Origin: Oligoflexales bacterium | GTDB lineage: Bacteria > Bdellovibrionota_B > Oligoflexia > Oligoflexales > RGVZ01 | DNA: 64,000 bases | Direction of reading: 5' to 3' | NCBI GenBank assembly: GCA_947494335.1 | Contig: CANLUT010000001.1 | Coordinates: 1,240,001-1,304,000, forward strand | In this document: piece by piece, positions 23,250 to 29,819 of the stretch | How the letters are laid out: every line of letters starts with the position of its first letter | How positions within the stretch are numbered: the stretch's first letter is position 1 | Program-made: the position numbers and the translations under genes | The notes under the pieces: model-generated | Seen by the model: only the letters and a program-made list of their open reading frames with translations | The model's database searches: none | What the model was told of the DNA's origin: nothing

Positions 23250-24797
23250 TTAAGATGCTGCCTTGTCCGCCTCATGCCCCTGGCGAATGATTGCGCGGAA
23301 TGTGTCAACCAACTCGTCCTTCTGTTGTGAACTAAGGTTGGTGATCATTAAACCATGCAGATAACCTTGAGCAACAGCACGCCCCCAGCGGACCTCAGCA
23401 TGGATGACCAGAGTAGGACCAATGGAAGGGCTCTGCAAAGTGGCTGGAATCATTAGCACCAGATCGAGACCAACACCGTTGCCAATGTACATGGGCAATA
23501 AAGCGCTTAGACCGGAGACACTAAAATCATTTAATCGCGCTCGCCCATAACGCGAATCAAGATAAATCGCAACATCGACGGGTACTGGCCAGCGAGAGTC
23601 TTTTCGTTCGATACCCAAAGACTTCCTGAATGCTTCTGTCACTGCACGAACATCACTCTGACGATCTTCAAAGGGCTCACACTCATAGGCTTCGTACGGA
23701 GCTTCGCTGTGCTTTATTGGAATCAGCTTGCGCGTCAGTTTTGCATGCAATCCCTCTCGCGCGACGAGAAGATCATACGTACTTGCACCTATCATGACAG
23801 AGTAGTGCTGACAAGAAGCCTCAAATCTCTTGGCAAGATTCACACCATTACCAATGACTGTAAAATCAAAATAGTCATGGTCACCGACGTTACCAATAAA
23901 CACTGCAGATGTGTTAATTCCTATTCGTAACGGATAGATCGCCTTGCCCTCTTTGGCGGAGACCAGATTGCGCTCGAGAATTCCTTTCTGAATACTAATG
24001 CCGCACATCAGGGCAGCATCTGCGTGAGCGCGCGATGACTCGATCCCGTCAATACCATATCCAAAATAGGCCAGCATCCCGTCTCCGAGAGTCTTATCGA
24101 CCATACCGCCGTACTTAATGACCTCAGAGCGCATCAGATCAAATAATGATTTCAAATCCATAAACGCTTGGTGAGGAGTTAGGCGCTCGGATATCTGAGA
24201 AAAGCCGACAATGTCTAAAAACATGATCGATACGACCTTACCTGAAGGCACGGCGTCAAGAACACGGGGATTCTGAACAATCCAATCAATTCTTTTTCTT
24301 TCCATACGACCGGACAACGCAACGCGCAACGCCAGTAACCGTTCCCGATCGACACTGAGTCGATACCAAAACGTCAAAAGACCGCCAAACAGTATGTTAC
24401 AGCCCAAAACAGTCCATGGGCCATTCCAAGTAAAGATTAGGCCGACGCATTGCATAAAAACTACGGCGAAAATCGCTGCGGCGATTAAGCTAACGGGAAC
24501 TACGCTCATCGCGATAAACGACGCAAATATCGCACCGATCAGGCCACCCAGAAAGCCAAGGATTCCTAGAAATCCAGCAGACGCTGTATGGTCAATCGAC
24601 CCCATCACGTCTCGATATCCAGAAATATCTCCGACCCAGTTCAAAACTGAACTTCGCAACCCGTGATCCAGCGGTGTTAGAGCACCACTCATAGCGAAAT
24701 ATGCGCCACACGCAGATAAGAAAACCCCGACCGCCATGGTACGTTTCCACGTCGGATCAAAAGCTCTTTTGACACTCATTTCACTGGTCGGACCCAT
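23250..24797 (-). CDS. Membrane class III adenylate cyclase with C-terminal PilZ domain
   Basis: The 515-residue product starts at the ATG at 24797 with GGAG five bases upstream. About four hydrophobic segments (22-40, 74-98, 100-122, 128-145) surround a short extracytoplasmic loop. The class III cyclase domain (about 185-370) has metal Asp195 (FLDIVGFS), Lys235 and Asp239 (VDKTLGDGM), and the NLAKRFEA pair of transition-state residues. The Lys and the FTVIG Thr favour ATP, hence cAMP. Residues about 400-500 resemble PilZ: RYGRARLNDFSVSGL holds the DxSxxG element, with a weaker RxxxR. The protein may couple c-di-GMP sensing to cAMP synthesis. That coupling is inference; the two domains are well supported. 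Confidence 0.85.
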   Translation of the reverse strand: MGPTSEMSVKRAFDPTWKRTMAVGVFLSACGAYFAMSGALTPLDHGLRSSVLNWVGDISGYRDVMGSIDHTASAGFLGILGFLGGLIGAIFASFIAMSVVPVSLIAAAIFAVVFMQCVGLIFTWNGPWTVLGCNILFGGLLTFWYRLSVDRERLLALRVALSGRMERKRIDWIVQNPRVLDAVPSGKVVSIMFLDIVGFSQISERLTPHQAFMDLKSLFDLMRSEVIKYGGMVDKTLGDGMLAYFGYGIDGIESSRAHADAALMCGISIQKGILERNLVSAKEGKAIYPLRIGINTSAVFIGNVGDHDYFDFTVIGNGVNLAKRFEASCQHYSVMIGASTYDLLVAREGLHAKLTRKLIPIKHSEAPYEAYECEPFEDRQSDVRAVTEAFRKSLGIERKDSRWPVPVDVAIYLDSRYGRARLNDFSVSGLSALLPMYIGNGVGLDLVLMIPATLQSPSIGPTLVIHAEVRWGRAVAQGYLHGLMITNLSSQQKDELVDTFRAIIRQGHEADKAAS

Positions 24798-25077: not shown

Positions 25078-27834
25078 TCAGGCTAGCTGCAAATGGCTAT
25101 CCAGGTCATTGAGCACCGCAGCGCAAAGAGCGCGCATTTCACCCATGTTTCGCATCTCTAAAATTGTGCCTCTGTGAGCTGCCCTGTTTCTAACATCCTG
25201 CAAATCATTCATAGCTCGTGCAATTCTTGCAATGGAATCGCTATGTGGTTTGCTGATTGGAAAAAGAGGTTCCATAAGCTGTCCTCTAAACTTAAATGAT
25301 CTCCCGAAAATCAGAAGCAAGAGCGCCCATGCACGGAGACCGTCGACAACTTTGTACTGGTCTTTCATGATCATCCCTGTCATCACGGATCGACAAACTA
25401 AAGCCAGTTTATGCGCAGGGAACGAGTCGCGCGAAAAATAAAGACTACAGTCAAGATCGGTCACTAAATCGGGACCGAATCCCGAGTCCTCATCAAGCTC
25501 GAGGCGGACAACGCGTGACTGCATCTTCTGTAAAAAGTCAGCGCCCTGCCCTAAGAACATTTGTGAACCAATTTTCTCCTGCAACAGAAGGTCAATTGAT
25601 TTGACGTACTGAACCAATACGGTGCTCTTATCAACTCTCGCGTCAAACAGCTCCGGATGCCGCCATGTCACCTCACCGCTGCGCAATACAGACTTGATGA
25701 CTTCCGAATATCGACCATACCCTTTTAGGTCGCGTATCAAAGTCTCATCAATCGCATGATTTTCGGGAATCTGTATACCACCTTTGCGCGAGCTGATTCC
25801 TGTGCCTACACCCGTCACAACAAACACCATCAGATTATCACGTAAATTAATTGCCGACTGCAGGACCTCCGGATGCTTCATTGCCCCTGGTTTATCTGCA
25901 ATAAGCTTATCCACCAAGGCCGTCACCGCTTCGTATGAATCACCCAGCCTTGGCGTCAGGCTACGGAACACTTTCCGACAGAAAGCTTCATCTGAAATCC
26001 TGCCGCTGATATCTTTGAATAAACGGATATGCTCGTCGAGTCCACCGCTGGTCGTTATCGTGTCCAAAGCTCGACCAGATATGCTGGCATTCGGATGATC
26101 CAGTAATCCAAACAATTGATTCCACACATCCTGAGTGGCATGAGTTTTAGCGGCAACAATAGCCAGAATGCGAGTCTGGAAGTCCTGCTCCGAAATTGAT
26201 TGCGATATGAACGCTCGCCATTCCGGAACTGTCGAACCACAGAGAATCTTCAACAGCGCTGGTTTTAGCTCTATCTTCATGTCGTCTGGTAACTGATTAA
26301 GACAGGATGCATCGCTAACAACGTCACACTTAGCCAAGGCCCGAATAGCACTGGCGACTTCAAGACGATGCTCGGGTAGCGTGATGATCTGTCGCAAACG
26401 TTTACAGATGATTTTCGTCCCTTCATCTGAATTGCAAAGAGCCAAAGCCGCATAAGCAGCGTCCGTGACTGCACTTGGCGCCTTCAAACACTCACGTAAA
26501 AAATTAGCAGCATCAGGACCCAGGTAGCGAATTTGGCCCAAAGCACGCACCATCCGAGCTTTAACAGGCTCATGGCTCTCAGCCTCGATCAGCCGTACCA
26601 GTCGCTTGCCATATGACGTGCGAACGTCAGGTGCCATTGGCTGAATGGCAATGAAACTGACACCCTGCATCAGTGATTGCGCCACTAGAGCATTTACAGC
26701 TGCAAAGCGAATGTCATTAGTAACACCTTTATCCGCCAGCATTGGGAATAAAATCTCATCTGCCTTTTCTAAACGCACACAGCTCAAAACACGAACCAGA
26801 AATTGTGCGCCTTGTGCGGAAACGGTTTTAACAAACTCATCACGAGGATGACTCATTGAATATTCTCGAAGAACACCTGCAAATATTTCTAGGGGAATAT
26901 TTGCAAAGTGCTTGGCAAGAAACGCAATGTCGTCTTGAAAAGCTTCCTTTCTGAAACAAACGAGACGTTCCATCGCATAAAATGCAGGTGTTGCATCCGT
27001 AGCGAGAACCTGAATCGCCTCTTTGCGGGAATCCTCGGAGAATGAAGAAAGAATCTGCCACGCCTGACGCATCGCATGTGGACTAGCCGCATTGAGTGCT
27101 GCACCTACGGCGTCTTCAATCGTGAATCCTAGTCGCAATCTGATGTGTTCGATAGCCGACAGCTTGAGTTGGTGTGCAAACGCTCTATAACGTGTATCAA
27201 GTCTTTCAAGTGCACTGAGAGTATCGGCGTTTCCCAATCGACCCAAGGCCATCACCGCGGTATTGAACATCGGTCCGGATGGCTCTGTAAACGCGGTTTC
27301 TGTGATCATCTTAAGGCAGCGTCGATACCCTCGAAGACCTGCAGCGATCACAGCACTTTGAATGACAGAAACCGGAATGTTCTGGCGCTTACCGGTGAGA
27401 AAACTTGCCACTTCTGCTTCGCATGGAAAAAAATTCATATTACCAAGGGCTGCCAACGCTTCACGCAAAAGTGGATGGTCAGGTGTTCTGATGATGGCGC
27501 ACAAAAACTCGCCTGCAACCGGGTCATCAGACTGGCCCATTGCGAGAACAGCTTCGGCAGCCATCGCAAAATCATCGATAGCCATCGCTGTCTGGCATAA
27601 AAACTCGGTTGCGCGATCGTGACGGACTTTTCCGAGGGCCTGAATGATCGAAATCTTCGTTGTTCGCCACATTGTCCGATCAAATGTTTCAATCAGGATT
27701 CTAGCCGCGTTCATACCTCCACGGTCGGCGAGATCAAAAATAGCAACCCTACGGCGTTCCTCTTCATCGCAAGACTCCAGAATGTTCAGGAGCTTCAACG
27801 TTTCTTGGTCGAGTTGATATCGCTTGATCGCCAT
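25078..27834 (-). CDS. HEAT-repeat protein with HEPN-like C-terminal domain
   Basis: The protein has 918 residues with no signal peptide or membrane segment, so it is cytoplasmic. Residues about 1-620 are tandem helical hairpins of HEAT type (for example ATEFLCQTAM, EAVLAMGQSDDPVAGEFL, TDAAYAALALCNSDEG), making a long solenoid for protein or nucleic-acid contacts. After a linker, the last 200 residues form an all-helical domain ending in VRNRAAHRG. Arg882 and His887 match the RxxxxH (R-N-x3-H) signature of HEPN domains, many of which are RNases in toxin-antitoxin and abortive-infection systems. It stands alone: no antitoxin or nucleotidyltransferase partner is visible. The HEPN call is inferred from the motif and helical context, not an alignment. 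Confidence 0.7.
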   Translation of the reverse strand: MAIKRYQLDQETLKLLNILESCDEEERRRVAIFDLADRGGMNAARILIETFDRTMWRTTKISIIQALGKVRHDRATEFLCQTAMAIDDFAMAAEAVLAMGQSDDPVAGEFLCAIIRTPDHPLLREALAALGNMNFFPCEAEVASFLTGKRQNIPVSVIQSAVIAAGLRGYRRCLKMITETAFTEPSGPMFNTAVMALGRLGNADTLSALERLDTRYRAFAHQLKLSAIEHIRLRLGFTIEDAVGAALNAASPHAMRQAWQILSSFSEDSRKEAIQVLATDATPAFYAMERLVCFRKEAFQDDIAFLAKHFANIPLEIFAGVLREYSMSHPRDEFVKTVSAQGAQFLVRVLSCVRLEKADEILFPMLADKGVTNDIRFAAVNALVAQSLMQGVSFIAIQPMAPDVRTSYGKRLVRLIEAESHEPVKARMVRALGQIRYLGPDAANFLRECLKAPSAVTDAAYAALALCNSDEGTKIICKRLRQIITLPEHRLEVASAIRALAKCDVVSDASCLNQLPDDMKIELKPALLKILCGSTVPEWRAFISQSISEQDFQTRILAIVAAKTHATQDVWNQLFGLLDHPNASISGRALDTITTSGGLDEHIRLFKDISGRISDEAFCRKVFRSLTPRLGDSYEAVTALVDKLIADKPGAMKHPEVLQSAINLRDNLMVFVVTGVGTGISSRKGGIQIPENHAIDETLIRDLKGYGRYSEVIKSVLRSGEVTWRHPELFDARVDKSTVLVQYVKSIDLLLQEKIGSQMFLGQGADFLQKMQSRVVRLELDEDSGFGPDLVTDLDCSLYFSRDSFPAHKLALVCRSVMTGMIMKDQYKVVDGLRAWALLLLIFGRSFKFRGQLMEPLFPISKPHSDSIARIARAMNDLQDVRNRAAHRGTILEMRNMGEMRALCAAVLNDLDSHLQLA

Positions 27835-28118
27835 GGGAGCCTGTGATGGTTGGGGTGTGTGGTCCTAATATCCTATCATGACAGGCAAATTCTGGTGAAA
27901 GCTCGACGGTTATGGTTAGTTTCACTGACCTCAGCTAGAGGGAACAATCAGCAAAACATCCGAACGGCTAGAGATTTGATTTACAAATGCTGCACGAGGG
28001 GGCATGCCAAGCCTCGAATATGACGATTTTTTTTCGGTGGTTTGTAACGTCCTTCGAAATAATTCAAGAATTTGCTCAAAAACTCCGATACCCGAGTACT
28101 TATGTGGAGAACGAGTCC
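27835..28118. other. Divergent spacer between HEAT-HEPN and CAP lipoprotein genes
   Basis: This 283 bp spacer must hold two divergent promoters. No convincing -35/-10 pair or small gene could be fixed by eye. An open frame from 27987 runs into the CAP lipoprotein but lacks a ribosome-binding site. Confidence 0.4.
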
Positions 28119-29819
28119 ATGCACAACGATTCATTGAGACTGATCGTAGGTTTACTCATTGGTCTGAGCATCTCCGGATGCCGCGAGCCTGGACCAAACT
28201 CATCGCTCAGAACTCTCGATAACATCGCTACTGCAAGGCCACAATTTGAGGCCTGCACTGGCTCCGGCGACGTGCATCGCAAAGTCGACCCGACAATACC
28301 ATCCCATCTGCGCCTAGCACTTGCAGCCGTTCCCATACAGATTCAAAACGCCTTTTTCGATGACCTTGGAGGAAAAATCCGCGTCGTTGATGATCCATCA
28401 CTCAAGGACTGTGGCCCTTTAGGCGCGCGCACTGACGATCGACTTTCATGTTGGCGCAGACTACCGAACCAAACATCATCAATCGAAATCATCGTCAAAA
28501 AAAGCAACGCAACCATAGAACAATATGCTCTGGTCCGCACATTTGGTTTTGTTTATGGAGATATCCTCATTCATCGAGTGATGCCTGCTAGTCTCAATGC
28601 TCCTGTGCTTATCAGCGAACGTCCACAGGGCCATTTAAAGGACTATAAGGCACATTTAGCCTCAGTGTTTTTAGGTGACCTCATAGCGACGGCTAGTGGT
28701 CAGCAGGAGAAAGAAGCGATTGAAACGCTTGCTGAGCTCGGGATTCCTAAATCCGTAGCATCTGAGCCAAACTTTGAAAAACGCTGGCTGGAGTTTTCAA
28801 GGTTACCTGTATCAACTCAAGACAGCTTTTCATCCAGAGTCTTTGCCGAGGCATTTCATAGTCAGTTCTGTTCTGAAAAATCTGCGGAGCGAGCCTGCAA
28901 ACTCTTTGGACAAACCATGCGCGCGTTTGCTCCTTTTGCAGAAGATGTAACCTCCAAGTCTTGGATGCAAAAACATGCCACCTGCGCTGTCAACAGTACA
29001 AGTCTTGCTGCGCCGACGGCATCAGCGTCTTCCAGTCGCAAAGAATGGTTTGCCAGCCATAGAGGCACTATAAACGAAAGGCAAAACCGAGGACTTGAAA
29101 ATGGAACTCTCGTGAATGCAAAAATTGCCGAATACGCACTGAGTGCAACGAATCAAGCAAGACAAGGGACCCAAACATCAGCATTTAATTTATCTGGCGA
29201 CCTTCTCTCTATGCTCCAAAATCTTTTATCTGGCGGACTGTCTCTAGGGGGCGGTGGCGGTGGTCTCGGAGGAGTTTTGAATCAAATCCTCGGCGGCATC
29301 GGTGGCGGCGGCGGCGGACTTGGAGGTCTATCGGGTCTTCTATCAAACTTGGGTCTTGGTGGACCCATGGGAAACAACCTTGGCGGTGGTGCTGGAGGGG
29401 GAGAGCCGATCAATAACACGCCTCCTCAAACGACACCGATCGACGCTGGCGGAAATAATGCGCCTGGGCCCTCAGGAGGCTCTGGAAGTGGGATCGCATC
29501 CGCAGAGGAAAAGGCCGGCATGGACGCCACAAATCGCTATCGCCAAAGCCAGGGCAAAGAACCGCTACAGATTGACGACCAGATGATCGCCGACTGCCGC
29601 AAGCAAGCACAGGCACAGGTAGCACAAGGACTGCAGCACTGGCTGGTTCCCGCGGGCATCGCTCGGGGAGAGAACATCGCGTATGGGTCCAAGTCGGGGG
29701 AATACACCGTGATGCAGCAATGGGTAAAATCACCAGGCCACCACGCAAACATCATGGGAAATTATCGCTATATCGGCATTGGAAACGTAGGAAATCAGTG
29801 GTGTCAACGCTTTCGTTAA
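28119..29819 (+). CDS. CAP (SCP/PR-1) domain lipoprotein with shared N-terminal domain
   Basis: I chose the ATG at 28119 because GGAGA precedes it and a signal peptide with lipobox ISGC follows at once; the product has 566 residues. Residues about 20-260 form an unnamed domain shared with the lipoprotein at 60791-63232 (compare SLRTLDNIA with RLKSLENFA, and LVRTFGFVYGDIL with VVRTMGYMLADAL). Residues about 365-450 form a glycine-rich linker with runs of GGGGG. The C-terminal 115 residues are a CAP domain: NRYRQSQG, LQHWLVPAG, GENIAYGS and SPGHHANIMG carry the conserved His/Glu cleft residues. CAP proteins are secreted, with roles ranging from lipid binding to proteolysis; the substrate is unknown. 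Patatin follows 90 bp downstream. Confidence 0.85.
   Translation: MHNDSLRLIVGLLIGLSISGCREPGPNSSLRTLDNIATARPQFEACTGSGDVHRKVDPTIPSHLRLALAAVPIQIQNAFFDDLGGKIRVVDDPSLKDCGPLGARTDDRLSCWRRLPNQTSSIEIIVKKSNATIEQYALVRTFGFVYGDILIHRVMPASLNAPVLISERPQGHLKDYKAHLASVFLGDLIATASGQQEKEAIETLAELGIPKSVASEPNFEKRWLEFSRLPVSTQDSFSSRVFAEAFHSQFCSEKSAERACKLFGQTMRAFAPFAEDVTSKSWMQKHATCAVNSTSLAAPTASASSSRKEWFASHRGTINERQNRGLENGTLVNAKIAEYALSATNQARQGTQTSAFNLSGDLLSMLQNLLSGGLSLGGGGGGLGGVLNQILGGIGGGGGGLGGLSGLLSNLGLGGPMGNNLGGGAGGGEPINNTPPQTTPIDAGGNNAPGPSGGSGSGIASAEEKAGMDATNRYRQSQGKEPLQIDDQMIADCRKQAQAQVAQGLQHWLVPAGIARGENIAYGSKSGEYTVMQQWVKSPGHHANIMGNYRYIGIGNVGNQWCQRFR

Follow-up and report, generated by a model that had tools for sequence, protein, structure and literature searches.

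A HEAT-repeat protein with a very probable C-terminal HEPN domain

The window, by which we mean the whole 64,000-nucleotide stretch of Oligoflexales DNA analysed here, encodes a 918-residue protein that, by computation, consists of a HEAT scaffold followed by a C-terminal HEPN domain. Our preferred reading, to which we assign a probability of about 0.55, is that this protein is an undescribed HEPN endoribonuclease carried on a HEAT solenoid, chromosomally fixed and self-contained, whose task lies in normal RNA processing or the regulation of mRNA and not in defence against phages. In bacteria, HEPN nucleases are familiar chiefly as mobile toxins and effectors of defence. If our reading is correct, a vertically inherited solo HEAT-HEPN protein with fixed catalytic residues would stand as a bacterial equivalent of Las1 and other housekeeping HEPN enzymes, and as an example of a HEPN-class nuclease that is kept safe without an antitoxin. 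The protein, one product of an old inherited gene pair of Bdellovibrio-related bacteria, may cut RNA within normal cell life.

The open reading frame occupies positions 25078..27834, as given in the first-pass annotation; it lies on the minus strand (read from 27834 to 25078), starts with ATG and comprises 918 codons. Full-length relatives at 45-48% identity are found in three other genomes of the same genus and, judged from this conservation, the frame is a genuine gene; it belongs to group A of the two paralogous groups described below. The HEAT solenoid proposed in the same annotation is borne out. It extends over about residues 8-677 (25804..27813; this and all further features of the protein lie on the minus strand), where Pfam HEAT_2 matches in four stretches (E 3.6e-22). 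This is the sole significant Pfam match of the protein, to which NCBIfam adds only a weak HEAT-type match (NblB) below the cut-off. An AlphaFold2 model of the full-length protein, built with 29 relatives in the alignment, has a mean pLDDT of 87 and shows helix pairs over this region that superpose with alphaRep, HEAT and ARM structures at Z 11-15 in VIA-align. The protein thus combines the two marks of a HEAT-repeat protein, a Pfam HEAT match and an alpha-solenoid fold in the model. Residues 675-690 (25765..25812) form a flexible linker that is predicted to be disordered and has a pLDDT below 50, and for this reason the orientation of the HEPN domain relative to the solenoid was left uninterpreted.

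Assignment of the C-terminal domain

Residues 690-918 (25081..25767) very probably constitute a HEPN domain. Modelled in isolation with AlphaFold2, they form a compact unit (pLDDT 89.9, pTM 0.88) with predicted helices at residues 22-36, 48-72, 176-198 and 205-225 in domain numbering. An insert of about 100 residues (75-170), made up of short helices and a beta hairpin, separates helices 2 and 3. HEPN domains are defined by an Rx4-6H motif with a polar residue after the arginine, located at the end of helix 3; helix 2 further bears an acidic residue, in many cases as part of an Ex3[KR] motif, and an insert separates it from helix 3 (PMC3710099). The model shows two helical hairpins flanking the insert, and its match to the RnlA HEPN structure 7aex spans model residues 2-225. 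The predicted catalytic motif, R882-N883-R884-A885-A886-H887 (25174..25191), is of the Rx4H type with a polar asparagine after the arginine, and ends the helix formed by residues 865-887. In domain numbering its R193 and H198 stand at the very end of helix 3, from which a loop leads on to helix 4. The RNRAAH motif had been singled out in the first-pass annotation as a HEPN signature with R882 and H887 as its key residues; the numbering is correct, and both residues lie on one helix rather than apart. Helix 2 carries a second motif, K745-x-x-D748 (25591..25602), which supplies the acidic residue.

A raw Foldseek search of the domain against the PDB returned no significant match. Re-ranking of the Foldseek candidates with VIA-align placed 7aex first (Z 9.5, 130 aligned residues, 3.1 Å), a moderate score for an all-helical domain. 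It was followed by Csm6 (Z 6.8), two entries of a HEPN toxin (Z 6.5 and 6.3), two more Csm6 structures and AbiV, so that HEPN proteins account for seven of the nine top rows. Cytochrome P450, first in the raw Foldseek output with a probability of 0.11, was set aside, as such chains did not head the VIA-align ranks. A viral fold library yielded nothing significant, and the domain profile drew no match at E 10 when searched against PDB sequences. Since the raw Foldseek scores are not significant, the weight of the assignment rests on the rank pattern together with the motif and the profile test.

For the latter we aligned a profile of 70 family sequences with hhalign to Abi_2, represented by only three proteins taken from genomes of the phylum that contains the Bdellovibrionales. 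The match, which spans 109 columns and lays one RN..xH motif over the other, had a probability of 74.6% (P 2.6e-5); a control with the reversed family gave 0.1% (P 0.41). Against six RiboL-PSP HEPN proteins the probability was 6.8%, again with motif on motif; single-sequence hhalign comparisons with RiboL-PSP and DUF4145 members were uninformative. The first-pass annotation had named the lack of a HEPN match in profile searches as grounds for abandoning the assignment. Plain HMM searches came close to that outcome: HMMER found no significant Pfam HEPN match for any family member (best E 0.017 for Abi_2 and 0.036 for RiboL-PSP HEPN). The profile-profile and structural comparisons, on the other hand, spoke for the assignment. 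Sub-significant Pfam matches of single members were to Abi_2, RiboL-PSP, LA2681 and DUF4145 (E 0.02-0.1); several of the top ones come from the HEPN group, which is no more than suggestive. The window domain itself has no Pfam match and falls outside Abi_2 at the curated cut-off of PF07751. Because Pfam searches miss it, the domain looks like an undescribed HEPN family.

Invariant residues and the case for catalysis

A scan of genome contigs for close relatives of the single protein yielded no loci, and an alignment-based scan yielded 29. One of the two scan patterns contains RN-x-AAH, and motif conservation was therefore also judged on relatives selected without it. All 31 relatives found without use of the motif keep RN-x-A-x-H. 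Among 70 non-redundant sequences from both paralogous groups eight columns are fully invariant: R718, K745, D831, Q879, R882, N883, A885 and H887. Residue 748 is acidic in 70/70 sequences, being D in 30/31 of group A and E in 39/39 of group B. All 39 group B domains have a complete Ex3R motif (E748..R752), whereas group A has the acid without the basic residue. Given the 31 motif-blind relatives and the invariance across the 70 sequences, RNRAAH is, at the level of sequence, no chance match.

These residues make it probable that the domain is an RNase. We only infer this activity, since the HEPN domain of AbiA has an intact R-x6-H motif (RNSNPVSH) without detectable RNase activity and acts in dimerisation, for which it is needed (PMC11077055). 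By analogy, the HEPN domain described here could be a non-catalytic module for dimerisation or RNA binding and the protein a scaffold, and the invariant R718, D831 and Q879 could be structural. We consider this unlikely, because neither paralogue shows any variation at R882, N883 or H887 even though group B domains share only 19-23% identity with that of the window gene, and because the helix-2 lysine and D/E are fixed as well.

On the preferred reading, an RNase with a role in normal RNA metabolism, the gene product would be a fixed chromosomal component of Oligoflexia-type and some Bdellovibrio-type bacteria. Its HEPN domain would self-associate like other HEPN nucleases, and a metal-independent active site may be built from R882, N883 and H887, where helix 3 ends, and from K745 and D748 in helix 2; it would cut RNA and leave a 2',3'-cyclic phosphate. 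The solenoid, on its flexible linker, would bind an RNA or RNA-protein target and restrain the nuclease, and no separate antitoxin would then be needed.

Distribution of the family and its two paralogues

Within the phylum of the window, the domain is present in 47/58 genomes (35/39 when good genomes are counted); it also occurs in 19/240 genomes of the phylum that contains the Bdellovibrionales. In a midpoint-rooted tree groups A and B are each monophyletic, with a support of 1.0 for the split. The two groups arose by an ancient duplication, and the distribution of the HEAT-HEPN family is vertical. Group A proteins, which include the product of the window gene, are about 840-970 residues long; those of group B are mostly about 690-1040 residues long and have a weaker HEAT signal. 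The genome from which the window derives has both paralogues (B at locus L061). Group A is patchy, occurring in 15/58 genomes of the phylum by our tally, a pattern that also fits a dispensable or a defence role. The HEPN families used for comparison occur in few of the same or related genomes: RiboL-PSP is found in 2/56 and 6/368, DUF4145 in 3/56 and Abi_2 in 3/368. A sporadic distribution with defence neighbours was not found for the family as a whole; group A alone is patchy.

Gene neighbourhood of group A

The nearest genes to the window gene are a divergent upstream neighbour that starts at 27987 (+) and a downstream neighbour at 23250-24797 (-), 280 nt away. Neither is antitoxin-like, which agrees with the remark in the first-pass annotation that no partner antitoxin is encoded next to the gene. 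The upstream gene (27987-29819, +) encodes a CAP-domain protein with a long glycine-rich stretch. The downstream gene codes for a fusion of PilZ with a membrane nucleotide cyclase, for which the genome has about 10 matches; such cyclase-PilZ proteins are much expanded in the order, with up to 20 matches per genome. We rejected it as a functional partner in view of the roughly 10 genome copies and the lack of a fixed adjacency to the HEAT-HEPN gene.

The annotation had also called for a survey of homologue neighbourhoods, which we carried out. It revealed stable synteny and no recognised antitoxin or defence partner; specifically, no conserved antitoxin-like gene (MNT, RnlB or other) was found beside group A across the loci examined. 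In the Bdellovibrionales, group A lies closely 3' of a HiPIP-like gene in most cases, within a conserved stretch that includes an SNF2 helicase, a tyrosine recombinase, a site-2 protease-like gene, a trpS-like gene and scpA. The small HiPIP-like protein just upstream, of Tat type and assigned to its family by eye, is encoded at L049:9618-9995, L050:8148-8525 and seven more loci. Two same-genus genomes have, downstream of A, a gene with a Pfam match to MATCAP, the microtubule-associated tyrosine carboxypeptidase (L032:12766-14064, where E is 2e-104, and L034:12762-14024). The same two genomes encode, just upstream of A, a 580-residue protein without a Pfam match (L032:8192-9934; L034:8188-9924) that is absent from the window.

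These data bear on an anti-phage or abortive-infection RNase, in which the HEAT solenoid would sense a phage component and release the HEPN nuclease; an anti-phage or stress role was what the first-pass annotation had implied. The nearest HEPN profile is indeed Abi_2 (AbiD/AbiF, abortive infection), structural neighbours of the domain include RnlA, Csm6 and AbiV, fusions of AbiJ-type HEPN proteins with HEAT repeats have been described (PMC3710099), and group A is patchy in the phylum. The family is, however, inherited vertically, near-universal in the phylum and fixed in its synteny, with no recognised defence context. With PADLOC, the HEAT-HEPN protein obtained a weak HEAT match (E 5.4e-07) and nothing specific, and no mobile-element context was seen in the neighbourhoods examined. 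Matches of neighbouring genes to Pycsar, patatin, SNF2 and cyclase components were rejected as a defence system, being generic and at the domain level. We therefore regard a defence function as improbable.

Gene neighbourhood of group B and a possible link to motility

In most of the order the neighbours of group B are fabG-/fabH-like, Omp85/TamA-type and TamB genes. One family (f12) differs: in 11/11 genomes examined, the gene that directly follows B, on the same strand, encodes flagellin. The gaps, counted from coordinates, are 2-30 nt, the flagellin identity was confirmed and the gene order is fixed; B is apparently cotranscribed with flagellin in this family. At these loci (L079, L080 and L098-L106; for example L079:5487-9376) a PTPS/QueD-like gene comes after flagellin, joined at 10 of them by a radical-SAM QueE-like gene, which makes for an odd mixed operon. 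Elsewhere, B lies between csrA-fliW and cheA-cheW-cheR in one genome (G037, L077:2004-12165) and a few genes from csrA-fliW in another (G026, L072:2457-10925). By tally, B is present in 40/48 flagellin-bearing and 2/8 flagellin-lacking genomes (Fisher P 0.002, kinship uncorrected). The two flagellin-less relatives that keep B led us to reject it as an obligate flagellar gene. Motility is the single hint at a substrate, and it concerns paralogue B only; the flagellin link in one family provides a candidate substrate that can be tested directly. A broader proposal, in which the two HEAT-HEPN paralogues form a core regulator of motility genes at the post-transcriptional level, with B cleaving flagellin or other flagellar mRNA and A being a duplicate with another target, appears improbable to us.

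Possible internal control and relation to known HEPN systems

Internal control of the nuclease, which the first-pass annotation had suggested, is plausible, as neither a partner gene nor a conserved adjacent non-coding RNA was found. A toxin of the AbiF kind, its nuclease held by a small RNA encoded nearby in a type III-like manner, is very improbable: RNA-based regulation has been reported for AbiF, a named relative of Abi_2 (PMC12373285), but Rfam gave no match above threshold near the gene, intergenic comparison with eight relatives gave no similarity, and the neighbourhood offers no conserved position for such an RNA.

HEPN domains on alpha-solenoids are already known; what is new is a HEPN family that is unlisted, lineage-core and without a partner. 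In the literature searched, no paper pairs HEPN with Oligoflexia; those that pair HEPN with Bdellovibrio or flagellin do not, judged by titles and the opening lines of abstracts, deal with the HEAT-HEPN family. The likeness to Abi_2 (PF07751; AbiD/AbiF) includes the context of the motif (LQDvRNrAAHrg versus IndlRNRiaHhe) in the hhalign alignment above. The domain described here, in contrast, is 230 residues long with a larger insert, sits on a 680-residue HEAT solenoid and is core to its lineage, whereas Abi_2 is sporadic. RnlA (RNase LS), the best structural match, likewise has a single HEPN domain at the C-terminus of a larger protein, but it differs in its N-terminal domains and in having an antitoxin, RnlB; the protein described here has HEAT repeats and no antitoxin. 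The joining of HEPN to an alpha-solenoid is shared with AbiJ-type HEPN-HEAT and LA2681-HEPN-TPR proteins (PMC3710099). Those types, however, carry other domains or operon partners, and no significant profile match to them was obtained here (LA2681 E 0.096, one member). A precedent for a housekeeping HEPN endoribonuclease is Las1, a HEPN enzyme of eukaryotic rRNA processing (PMC10942766); it differs from the HEAT-HEPN protein in architecture and in its partner, Grc3.
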